Shown: positions 3,220 to 27,177 of the stretch, piece by piece
How positions within the stretch are numbered: position 1 is the stretch's first letter
How the letters are laid out: every line of letters starts with the position of its first letter
NCBI GenBank assembly: GCA_015486015.1
Contig: WFSL01000022.1
Span: forward strand, 1 to 43,745
DNA length: 43,745 bases
From: Aquificota bacterium
Lineage (GTDB): Bacteria > Thermosulfidibacterota > Thermosulfidibacteria > Thermosulfidibacterales > B14-G1
Reading direction: 5' to 3'
Program-made: the position numbers and the translations under genes
Notes under the pieces: model-generated
Databases searched by the model: none
Seen by the model: only the letters and a program-made list of their open reading frames with translations
Told to the model about the DNA's origin: nothing

Positions 3220-3313
<94 letters not shown>

Positions 3314-3331
3314 ATACACGTGATCTCAGGT

Positions 3332-3440
3332 GACCGCTACCGGGTCCTACGCAGCGGGTGCCCCCGAACCCCGCCAGGCCCGGAAGGGAGCAACGGTAAG
3401 GGGGACCTCCCGGGTGCCGTGGGGTAGCCTGGTGGCGGTC
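3332..3440 (+). ncRNA. ffs: Signal recognition particle RNA, small bacterial (4.5S) type
   Basis: A hairpin RNA of about 109 bases whose ends GACCGC and GCGGTC pair. The apical region contains CCAGGCCCGGAAGGGAGCAA, which matches the conserved SRP domain IV: the GGAA tetraloop plus the asymmetric internal loop with AGCA, where Ffh binds. It begins 18 bases after the tRNA-Ser CCA, so the two RNAs are probably transcribed together and separated by processing. This RNA explains the sequence before the aldolase gene, so open frames through it are not coding. Confidence 0.92.
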
Positions 3441-24549: not shown

Positions 24550-24578
24550 TTGACAAAGGGGGCTCGGCGGGAAATACT
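24550..24578 (+). promoter_or_regulatory. Probable promoter for tRNA-Met
   Basis: TTGACA (6 of 6) at 24550-24555 and AATACT (4 of 6) at 24573-24578 are separated by 17 bases. The predicted transcription start is about 24585, just before the tRNA at 24591. The gap from the ApgM stop (24492) to the tRNA contains nothing else recognisable except the DnaA-box match at 24581-24589. Confidence 0.5.
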
Positions 24579-24580
24579 AA

Positions 24581-24589
24581 TTATCCACA
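24581..24589 (+). promoter_or_regulatory. Perfect DnaA-box match at the tRNA-Met start region
   Basis: TTATCCACA, the strict consensus DnaA box, falls between the predicted -10 and the tRNA 5' end. About 0.3 perfect matches are expected by chance in a window of this size on both strands, and one other occurs inside lptG (4644-4652). It may therefore be accidental. Confidence 0.25.
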
Positions 24590-24590
24590 A

Positions 24591-24664
24591 GGGCCCGTAG
24601 CTCAGTTGGTGAGAGCCACCGGCTCATAACCGGAAGGTCCCAGGTTCGAGTCCTGGCGGGCCCA
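24591..24664 (+). tRNA. tRNA with CAT anticodon, probably elongator tRNA-Met, CCA not encoded
   Basis: Acceptor GGGCCCG pairs with CGGGCCC, then discriminator A. D-arm GCTC/GAGC, anticodon loop CTCATAA giving CAT, T-arm CCAGG-TTCGAGT-CCTGG. Initiator tRNA is excluded because the first acceptor pair is a proper G-C and the anticodon stem lacks three consecutive G-C pairs. tRNA-Ile2 (lysidine-modified CAT) cannot be fully excluded by eye. The outermost anticodon-stem pair is A-A, a mismatch. CCA must be added after transcription, unlike tRNA-Ser in the same window. Confidence 0.92.
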
Positions 24665-24769: not shown

Positions 24770-25564
24770 ATGATCTTAGAGGAGGTCCTGTCCCTTTTAG
24801 ATCAGATAGCCCCCTTCTCCCTTGCCCTCCCCTGGGACAACTCTGGCCTCCAGATTGGAGACCCCCATCAAGAGATCTCCTCGGTTTACTTAGCCTTAGA
24901 GGCAAGCCACAGGGTGATAGACAGTGCCAAACAGTCAGGGGCCCAGCTCATCGTCACCCATCACCCCCTCCTATTTGAGCCGGTGAAGTCCATCGTTCGG
25001 AGGGGATATCCTGGTCCCCTCATCTACCGGCTCATAGAGTCACGCATAGCCCTGGTGGCCATGCATACCAACTGGGATGCTGCCCCAACGGGGCTCTCCC
25101 ACGCCTTGGCCCAGAAGATAGAGCTAAGGGAGGTTAGGATCTTAGAGCCCACACATGGAGGTGATGCAGGTATAGGAAGGGTAGGCGTCCTCCTGAGGCC
25201 CATCACCCTCCAAAGGCTTGCCAAAAGGCTTATGGAGGAACTTCCTGCCCCCTGGGCCCGATTGGTGGGGGATCCGCAGGCAAAGGTGCAGCGCATAGCC
25301 GTCTGCCCTGGATCGGGAGGAGACCTCTGGAGAAAGGCCCAGGAGGCAGGCGCCCAGTTGCTTGTAACAGGGGACATTAGACACCATCAGGCCCGAGAGG
25401 CCCAGGAATCAGGGATGAACCTCTTGGACATGGGCCATTTTGCTACAGAGGCCTGGGGGATGAAGGTGCTCAAACACAAGATAGAGAAGGTGGCTCCTAA
25501 GCTCAGGGTGGAGTTGGACAACACCCTAAGGGACCCCTTCACCACATACACCAAAGGAGGGTAA
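24770..25564 (+). CDS. Nif3-like dinuclear metal-centre family protein (YbgI/DUF34)
   Basis: Conserved protein with a two-metal site; cellular role unsettled, and often mis-titled GTP cyclohydrolase I type 2. 264 residues, the short form without the central PII-like insertion. Metal ligands are visible in VTHHPLLFEPVK, AMHTNWDAAPTG, TGDIRHHQAR and DMGHFATEAWGM. PWDNSGLQIGD is the usual N-terminal motif. The ATG at 24770 has only a weak AGTAGG upstream, and the hairpin at 24725-24758 ends 11 bases before it. First gene of the nif3-zinc ribbon-RNase HI group. Confidence 0.9.
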   Translation: MILEEVLSLLDQIAPFSLALPWDNSGLQIGDPHQEISSVYLALEASHRVIDSAKQSGAQLIVTHHPLLFEPVKSIVRRGYPGPLIYRLIESRIALVAMHTNWDAAPTGLSHALAQKIELREVRILEPTHGGDAGIGRVGVLLRPITLQRLAKRLMEELPAPWARLVGDPQAKVQRIAVCPGSGGDLWRKAQEAGAQLLVTGDIRHHQAREAQESGMNLLDMGHFATEAWGMKVLKHKIEKVAPKLRVELDNTLRDPFTTYTKGG

Positions 25565-25565
25565 G

Positions 25566-26273
25566 GTGAGGGAAGAGGTGAGGCTTTTGGTAAAGCTCCA
25601 AGCATTGGACACGTGGATAGAGGAGGCAGAAAGGCTGAAGGTTTCTCTTCCCCAGCAGATCCAGAAGGAGACAAGGGCCTTAGAAAAAGCCAAAGAGCAT
25701 TTAGGAGGACTCCAAGGAGAACTCAGGGCCCTGGAACTTGAGCGCAGAAGCAAGGAAAGGGAGATCAATGAGATCGGAGAAAAGGTGGGGGAGAAGAAGG
25801 CCAAGCTCTTTCAGGCCAAGAGTAATGAAGAATACGCCGCCATCACTAAGGAGATAGAGATGCTCAAAGAGAAGATCAGCCAACTGGAGGACGAGGTAAT
25901 CCTCCTCCTGGATCGGATAGAAGAGGTAAAGATGATGGAGCAAGGGGCAAGGGAGGAGGTGAAGGAGAAGGAGCGGCGCCTCCAGGCTGCACAGGCTGAG
26001 GCAGAGAGACAACTTCAAGAGACGGAGAAGAATCTTCAGGAACGGAGGAAGGAACGGGAAGAGATCTCCCACCGGTTGGCCCGTCGCACCTACCAGCTAT
26101 ACGAGAAGGTGAGGAAAAACAGGGGCAACGCTGTAGTTCAGGCCCAAAATTATACCTGTCAAGGTTGCCACATGGAAATCCCCCCCCAGACCTTCTTAGA
26201 GGTAAGAAAGGGGGAAACCCTTATCCAATGCCCTTTTTGCAATCGGATCCTTTACTACTGGGAGGAGAATTGA
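25566..26273 (+). CDS. C4-type zinc-ribbon coiled-coil protein (DUF164 family)
   Basis: 235 residues. A long antiparallel coiled coil (about 30-180, rich in E, K, R and L) is followed by a C-terminal zinc ribbon with CQGCHMEIPP and CPFCNRILYY (four Cys). QAKSNEEYAAITKEIEMLK is a family motif. Function unknown; nucleic-acid binding is suspected for relatives. The GTG start lies one base after the nif3 stop with GGAGG 6 bases upstream. The stop overlaps the RNase HI start in a TTGA arrangement, so all three are coupled. Confidence 0.88.
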   Translation: MREEVRLLVKLQALDTWIEEAERLKVSLPQQIQKETRALEKAKEHLGGLQGELRALELERRSKEREINEIGEKVGEKKAKLFQAKSNEEYAAITKEIEMLKEKISQLEDEVILLLDRIEEVKMMEQGAREEVKEKERRLQAAQAEAERQLQETEKNLQERRKEREEISHRLARRTYQLYEKVRKNRGNAVVQAQNYTCQGCHMEIPPQTFLEVRKGETLIQCPFCNRILYYWEEN

Positions 26274-26782
26274 CGAAGGATGTCCCGGCAAGAGGGCGAA
26301 AGAGGCCTCTCTACCGGCTTTTCATTGATGGGGCCTGCCGAGGCAACCCAGGCCCGGCAGCTTATGGTTGCATCCTCTACAAGGGGGACGAGGTGATGGT
26401 CGAGGGGAAGGGATATATAGGGAGGGGAACAAACAATTCTGCTGAGTACGCCGCCCTTATCAAGGGGCTGGAGCTGGCCTGGGAGGTAGGAGTGAGGGGA
26501 GAGATGGAGATATTTAGCGACTCTCAACTCATCGTAGGGCAGATGAGGGGGACTTACAAGGTTAGACACCCTCAGCTCCTCCCCTTACACCAAAGGGCCC
26601 GGGCCCTCTTGAAAAGATTCAAGGGAACCCGTATCTCTTATATAAGGCGAGGCCTAAACAGGGAGGCTGATCGGTTAGCAAACAGGGCCCTGGACGAGGC
26701 ATTGAAGAAGGCCGGGCAGCCGCCGGTGGGAGATTTTCCACTGGAGGAAAGTCCGGGCCCCGAAGGGCAGGACGCTGGGTAA
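26270..26782 (+). CDS. Ribonuclease HI family protein, 3' end overlapping rnpB
   Basis: Endonuclease predicted to cut RNA in RNA-DNA hybrids. 170 residues. The four acidic catalytic residues are in place: LFIDGACRGNPGPAAYG, NNSAEYAALIKGLELA, IFSDSQLIVGQMRG and LNREADRLANRAL. The TTG start at 26270 has GGAGG 4 bases upstream and overlaps the zinc-ribbon stop (TTGA); a longer frame upstream is the shadow of that gene. The RNase H fold ends near residue 145. The last 26 residues (from about AGQPPVGDF) are encoded by the 5' end of rnpB, a 79-base overlap of coding and RNA sequence. It resembles the short RNase HI/reverse-transcriptase-like family. Confidence 0.9.
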   Translation: MTKDVPARGRKRPLYRLFIDGACRGNPGPAAYGCILYKGDEVMVEGKGYIGRGTNNSAEYAALIKGLELAWEVGVRGEMEIFSDSQLIVGQMRGTYKVRHPQLLPLHQRARALLKRFKGTRISYIRRGLNREADRLANRALDEALKKAGQPPVGDFPLEESPGPEGQDAG

Positions 26783-27106
26783 CACCCAGGTTCCGTGAGG
26801 AACGGAGAGTGCCACAGAGAGGAGAACGCCAGTTTCGGCCCGTCCACCCTAATGCAGGGGCAGGTGACGGGTGGTAAGAGGCTGGTAAGGGTGAAAGGGT
26901 GGGGTAAGAGCCCACCAGCAATCCAGGTGACTGGATTGGCTAGGTAAACCCCGTCTGGGGCAAGACCAAATAGGGGAGCGCGAAGGGTGGCCCGCCCGTT
27001 GCTCCCGGGTAGGTCGCTGGAGGCGTTGGGTAACCAGCGCCGTAGATGAATGGCTGCCCTCTACCCCAATGGGGTAGAGACAGAACCCGGCTTACAGGCC
27101 TTCTTC
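26704..27106 (+). ncRNA. rnpB: RNase P RNA, bacterial type A
   Basis: Catalytic RNA that trims the 5' leader of pre-tRNAs. The ends pair as P1 (GAAGAAGGCC with GGCCTTCTTC). The P4 strands are present: GAGGAAAGTCCGGGC at about 26744 and ACAGAACCCGGCTTA at about 27080. Other conserved blocks are AGGGTGAAAGGGTG, GGTAAGAGCCCACC, GGTAAACCCC and AGATGAATGGCTGCC. Length about 403. P3 appears short. The 5' 79 bases also code for the end of the RNase HI protein. A GGGGG/CCCCC hairpin (27146-27162) lies downstream but lacks a U-run. There is no obvious separate promoter, so it may be processed from the nif3 transcript or start within the RNase HI gene. Confidence 0.96.
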
Positions 27107-27177
27107 GGCCTTGTCCAGGTCGTTTGTGGTATCAGCAATGACAGCGGGGGTTATCCGCCCCCAAAGGGAGGGATTCA

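Follow-up and report, generated by a model that had tools for sequence, protein, structure and literature searches.

Gene order and the RNase HI–rnpB junction

The locus lies in a 43,745-nucleotide stretch of DNA from an Aquificota bacterium (contig WFSL01000022.1), the whole of which is referred to here as the window. The gene order is tRNA-Met, DUF34/NIF3, C4 zinc ribbon, RNase HI, rnpB and prepilin peptidase, and the three protein genes 5' of rnpB are packed stop to start in the list of open reading frames. The protein cluster is headed by the DUF34/NIF3 gene (24770..25564, plus strand; PF01784, 2e-77). It is followed by a C4 zinc-ribbon/coiled-coil gene of CT398/CdsZ-like type (25566..26273, plus strand; PF02591 and PF24481), which scored far under the cut-off of the CdsZ model and which overlaps the start of the RNase HI gene.

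Upstream of the cluster lies a tRNA-Met(cat) gene (24591..24664, plus strand), preceded by a sigma-70-like site at 24550-24578. The same tRNA stands ahead of the NIF3, zinc-ribbon, RNase HI and rnpB cluster in two other genomes of the phylum, and a same-strand tRNA-Met is found upstream in seven named loci of other phyla, with tRNA-Val(cac) following it in four of the seven (window 24550-24664; L031, L032, L101, L103, L112, L120, L126, L130 and L133). The arrangement leading from a tRNA to the RNase P RNA is possibly of ancient origin. Elsewhere in the window, at 3220-3437, a tRNA-Ser(gga) gene has a small SRP RNA close behind it, and the SRP RNA match is 74% GC.

The RNase HI-like gene occupies 26270..26782 on the plus strand and encodes 170 amino acids if the TTG at 26270 is the start codon. 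This is the likely start, which would give a four-base overlap with the upstream TGA. An RNase H domain is detected in the frame by PF13456 (RVT_3; 1.9e-19, 70.2 bits) and PF00075 (RNase_H; 5.8e-11, 43.2 bits), and D8, E47, D72 and D122, which we take to be the catalytic acidic residues, are invariant among 20 homologues. All seven NCBIfam equivalog-level matches fell under their cut-offs, and the protein is named at the level of the RNase H fold.

The RNase P RNA gene, rnpB, spans 26704..27110 on the plus strand and matches the class A model RF00010 over its full length (model positions 1-367; 312.9 bits against a gathering score of 100, E 1e-101); class membership is by sequence match and catalysis is predicted. 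The last four model positions, 27107-27110, are trailing unpaired bases. As the first-pass annotation had described, the RNase HI coding sequence runs 79 nt into rnpB (26704..26782, plus strand; RF00010 and the open reading frame list). The frame crosses P1, P2/P3 and the conserved block GAGGAAAGTCC, and its TAA (26780-26782) falls in the conserved GGGUAAC of the ribozyme. The end of the protein is thus dictated by the ribozyme, as had also been noted, the portion inside rnpB amounting to about 25 codons plus the final base of a TTG codon. In open-licence PMC text, no description of an RNase HI/rnpB overlap was found.

Conservation of the overlap

The window's phylum was represented by nine genomes (G000-G008), eight of which carry rnpB. 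The first-pass annotation had proposed that stop positions be compared across relatives in case the overlap was a one-off stop loss. In that comparison the RNase HI frame ends inside rnpB in all eight rnpB-bearing genomes and no separated genes are seen, so the overlap is neither chance nor a sequencing slip. The six genomes in which both genes are whole have overlaps of 79, 79, 31, 31, 79 and 31 nt, the stop falling either in P3, a variable region, or in the conserved GGGUAAC. In the remaining two the contig ends within rnpB, and the RNase HI frame there also reads the EESPG.x block.

The wider survey drew on two samples. In the first, 58 of 60 genomes had an rnpB match, of which 48 were used as full loci together with the contig-edge cases G005 and G006, the other eight being left out. 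In the second, 357 of 386 genomes were matched and 80 new loci were taken from about 150 matches, the listing having run from the best score down. Because of the way they were drawn, the resulting 128 unselected loci are biased to high-scoring class A RNAs. A further 20 of 80 named loci were added; having been picked for the GAGGAAAG motif near the RNase HI stop, they do not enter the unselected counts. Of the 148 rnpB loci, 63 have a same-strand RNase HI-like gene upstream, which reaches into rnpB in 22 (43 and 15, respectively, among the 128 loci chosen without regard to RNase HI). Many rnpB loci show overlaps, from 1 to 107 nt long. Among unselected loci outside the window's phylum, an overlap is seen in 9 of 122 and measures 7 to 107 nt, and the named overlaps include one of 71 nt in Latescibacterota and two of 69 and 70 nt in Omnitrophota.

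The stop position varies between 31 and 79 nt, set by whichever stop the ribozyme offers, and the RNase HI tail past P1 is therefore probably tolerated rather than selected. A functional protein tail was considered and ruled out, since relatives differ in its length as well as its sequence. The shared 79 nt from 26704 onward probably arose as a passive side effect.

A stem strand encoded by RNase HI codons

The first-pass annotation had placed the edge of the shared element at 26704. While the extent of 79 nt stands, this boundary does not, as a stem of the RNase P RNA reaches back into upstream RNase HI codons. Helix P1 can be prolonged outward by 10 to 13 bp. In the window the 5' strand (CCTGGACGAGGC; 26689..26700, plus strand) lies inside the RNase HI coding sequence and is made up of the third base of a GCC codon and then CTG GAC GAG GC, and it pairs with the 3' strand (GCCTTGTCCAGG; 27108..27119, plus strand) in the non-coding 3' flank of rnpB. 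Both strands are delineated by the pair table, covariation, flank-swap energies and the fold. A small internal loop separates P1 from the extension in the window's family, and none is present in L010 and L004. The fold of the window also contains two further outer helices, between 26666-26683 and 27122-27136 (GCAAAC/GUUUGU and GCUGAU/AUCAGC).

The extension is kept in all six phylum genomes with both flanks, and its two family groups share little stem sequence. Six of the 12 extension pairs change on both sides, as do 9 of the 21 pairs of P1 and the extension together. The Asp codon at 26693-26695 is GAC or GAT, and the facing base of the 3' flank changes with it between G and A; L013 has the one U-G intermediate. 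Standard pairs fill 93.7% of the 126 cells (21 pairs in six genomes), compared with 38-49% when the partners are slid, and the covariation score of 0.435 exceeds the shuffled mean of 0.175 and was reached in none of 500 shuffles; these numbers lean towards structure, since the register of the six-genome alignment was set by hand for pairing and the internal loop of 2-3 nt was omitted. Inner P1 is paired in 100% of its cells, and it is the outer end of the extension that varies in length.

Stem strength was also measured as duplex energy against shuffled sequences, and the accompanying flank-swap test is independent of the chosen register. With their own flanks, L010 and L004 form duplexes of -23.0 and -22.0 kcal/mol. 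When their left flanks are joined to 3' flanks from the window's family, the energies are -6.8 to -12.2 kcal/mol, and exchanging flanks between the two gives -15.6 and -12.4 kcal/mol despite their belonging to one genus. Flanks swapped within the window's family still pair well (-21.5 to -35.5), so it is between families, and between L010 and L004 inside their genus, that the test has its power. In 1000 shuffles, five of the six phylum stems were reached by two or fewer, and that of L013 by 62, which is not significant alone. The five strongest flank stems of 68 rnpB loci belong to five of the six phylum loci. It is thus well supported by sequence comparison that codons 26689-26700 would form the 5' strand of a P1 extension paired with the rnpB 3' flank. 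The case is strong that this putative codon-encoded strand, with its compensatory changes, is a new element of the junction, and one that the first-pass annotation missed.

Flank stems in other phyla

A comparable arrangement is seen in a second phylum, where L008 and L134 each have a 16-nt overlap of RNase HI with rnpB. The flank duplexes of these loci have energies of -17.5 and -25.4, respectively (reached by 9 and 0 of 1000 shuffles), and the 5' strand again consists of RNase HI codons. The swap test gave a mixed outcome here, as the left flank of L134 with the right flank of L008 yields a weak -9.5 and the reverse combination -21.7, which is stronger than L008's own value. Locus L021 combines an overlap of 107 nt with a flank stem of -21.6 (6 of 1000 shuffles).

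Long complementary flanks are present in other phyla at rnpB genes that RNase HI does not overlap (L139, L151, L179, L192, L203 and L211). As stems also occur at such non-overlapping loci, for example L179, L203 and L211, the flank stem is a wider trait of some rnpB genes than the overlap is, and complementary flanks may represent a precursor stem common to RNase P RNAs in general. Among the 128 unselected loci, stems are stronger where there is an overlap (p 0.001), but the relation is not significant once the window's phylum is removed (p 0.15), and outside that phylum the relation between stem and RNase HI adjacency is marginal (p 0.08). No stem was found at the overlapping named loci of Latescibacterota and Omnitrophota. 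On these two grounds, the p of 0.15 and the stemless overlaps, the stem as a general result of overlap was ruled out.

A putative promoter inside RNase HI and proposed maturation of the 5' end

At 15 other loci a sigma-70-like site is positioned for a start at P1, with 9-11 of 12 matches. No such promoter is found in the six phylum loci, where the corresponding positions have 0-5 of 12 matches. A putative internal rnpB promoter, TTGAAA-17-TATCTC, lies instead within RNase HI codons at 26609..26637 (plus strand), with a predicted start at about 26644. One RNase HI leucine is encoded by TTG in 8 of 8 phylum genomes and the lysine after it by AAA in all seven that keep the lysine; as background, TTG accounts for 21 of 131 leucine codons, and other well-conserved leucine columns have mixed codons. 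Across the phylum genomes the hexamer is TTGAAA (TTGCAA in L010), followed after 17 nt by TATCTY or a weaker sequence. The generic promoter scan did not call the site at 26609..26637, as its rule requires a T ending the -10 element and the -10 here is weak (TATCTC). The codon pattern suggests that TTGAAA may be the -35 element of an rnpB promoter inside RNase HI, with transcription starting about 60 nt before P1. It further suggests that much rnpB RNA could begin past the RNase HI start codon and never be translated. Across loci, stem z and promoter score have a Spearman correlation of 0.26 (p 0.0025), or 0.21 without the phylum (p 0.022), and the Fisher tests are not significant (0.18 and 0.55). 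The case for the stem standing strictly in place of a local promoter is weak.

A start upstream of P1, or read-through from the operon, would leave a 5' leader to be removed. In S. aureus, the SA1279 (gpsB) transcript continues into rnpB, for which a start site of its own is also possible, and RNase J trims the 5' leader of rnpB with helix P1 acting as the stop and protection (PMC3937233, passages on rnpB). RNase J was found above the cut-off in all five genomes of the window's family (TIGR00649, 528.7 bits in the window's own genome) and in none of the four genomes of other families. RNase III was detected in three of four genomes of the sister families and in none of the five of the window's family (PF14622 gave no match in the window's genome), in searches that matched only 8 and 9 of 14 control genomes, the others either lacking the enzyme or having been missed. 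Within one order (G000-G008) the two enzymes are thus complementary, the window's family having RNase J and the other families mostly RNase III.

Proposed explanation and its rivals

We consider it somewhat probable that two ordinary genes, RNase HI and a class A rnpB, overlap here such that the junction DNA carries the protein tail, a stem strand and the rnpB promoter, the leader being trimmed back to the stem. An rnpB precursor would arise from the promoter inside RNase HI, from operon read-through, or from both, and the stem at the end of its 5' leader would be about 22 bp long. By analogy with S. aureus, the leader, RNase HI codons included, would in the window's family most likely be trimmed by a 5' exonuclease of RNase J type until the stem blocks the enzyme; in the sister families, cleavage of the stem by RNase III could take the place of trimming. 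The RNase HI frame would simply have read on past P1 to the first in-frame stop of the ribozyme. It is also possible, if less probable, that the extension stays in the mature RNA as nothing other than a longer P1, perhaps for heat stability, and that the stem is not processed. P1 and the extension are almost continuous, with one small loop between them in the window's family but not in L010 or L004; families that differ in their nucleases retain the stem; and the GC content of the SRP RNA would suit a thermophile. However, compared with inner P1 the structure is looser at the internal loop seen in the window's family and at the outer end, which varies. That the overlap and its flanks are functionless, the upstream stop having been lost and the frame running to the first stop in rnpB, is unlikely as an account of the whole junction. 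The varying overlap depth and tail sequence among relatives, the many overlaps elsewhere and the stemless cases in Latescibacterota and Omnitrophota are what passive compaction would produce, but compaction alone would not be expected to yield compensatory changes between codons and 3' flank in six genomes. For the 79 nt downstream of 26704, compaction may be the right account.

The first-pass annotation had held that translating RNase HI and maturing the RNase P RNA should interfere with each other. Ribosomes completing RNase HI would sit over the first P4 strand as well as P1 and its extension, and with genes packed stop to start a read-through mRNA must contain both. Such interference is possible, but it found no support: the stop position is not conserved, and the likely internal promoter would give rnpB RNA that is not translated. 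Mutual regulation through competition on one transcript is accordingly rated quite unlikely. Similarly improbable is a related reading in which one transcript can end up either as RNase HI messenger or as RNase P RNA, with the stem codons as the switch and translation setting the supply of RNase P. Ribosomes holding the last RNase HI codons open would prevent the stem, leaving the RNA a messenger, whereas formation of the stem would let trimming destroy the end of the RNase HI message and free the RNase P RNA. A stalk cut by RNase III, of the type found in rRNA operons, is the least probable of the alternatives. A long flank-to-flank stem does enclose the RNase P RNA, and the enzyme is present in most of the sister-family genomes, but the window's family retains the stem with no RNase III detected, on which ground such a stalk is ruled out for that family.

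Relation to known systems and significance

Processing stalks of rRNA operons are formed when the flanks of a structured RNA pair around it. The pairing of flanks around rnpB is alike in this respect; it differs in that another gene's codons supply one strand, and no RNase III was detected in the window's family. The proposed route resembles that of SA1279 (gpsB)-rnpB in S. aureus, with read-through from the upstream gene, a possible start of its own and leader trimming by RNase J to P1, all of which is a proposal for the present locus. S. aureus also has an open reading frame, SA1278, inside rnpB, a coding overlap as seen here. The leader in S. aureus, however, is described as lying downstream of the SA1279 frame, and the passages of that report on rnpB describe neither a gene ending in rnpB nor pairing of codons with the 3' flank (PMC3937233). 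In type I 3'-derived sRNAs, such as MicL in cutC, the promoter lies within or just downstream of a coding sequence. The present locus likewise has a non-coding RNA at the 3' end of a protein gene, with a promoter that is putative. Unlike the MicL-type RNAs as outlined in the relevant part of that source, the RNA here is an essential ribozyme and the codons would form a covarying structural stem (PMC7821165). The rnpA/rpmH pair of Thermus is another case of an RNase P gene overlapping its neighbour; as summarised in a later article, it concerns two protein genes with a shared start region, whereas here a protein gene overlaps the RNase P RNA (Feltens 2003, cited in PMC9841429).

The final helix of RNase HI and a dispensable tail behind it are encoded in the junction DNA. 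An overlap of RNase HI and rnpB should be expected here in both gene calling and RNA annotation. If the proposed explanation is true, codons of a protein gene, including a synonymous site, would be selected for the stem of a neighbouring essential ribozyme, with the compensatory changes as the sign. This bears on how the 5' end of RNase P RNA is formed in bacteria that lack a promoter at P1. It would also provide a clear natural case of one DNA strand serving both the last helix of an enzyme and the ends of RNase P RNA.
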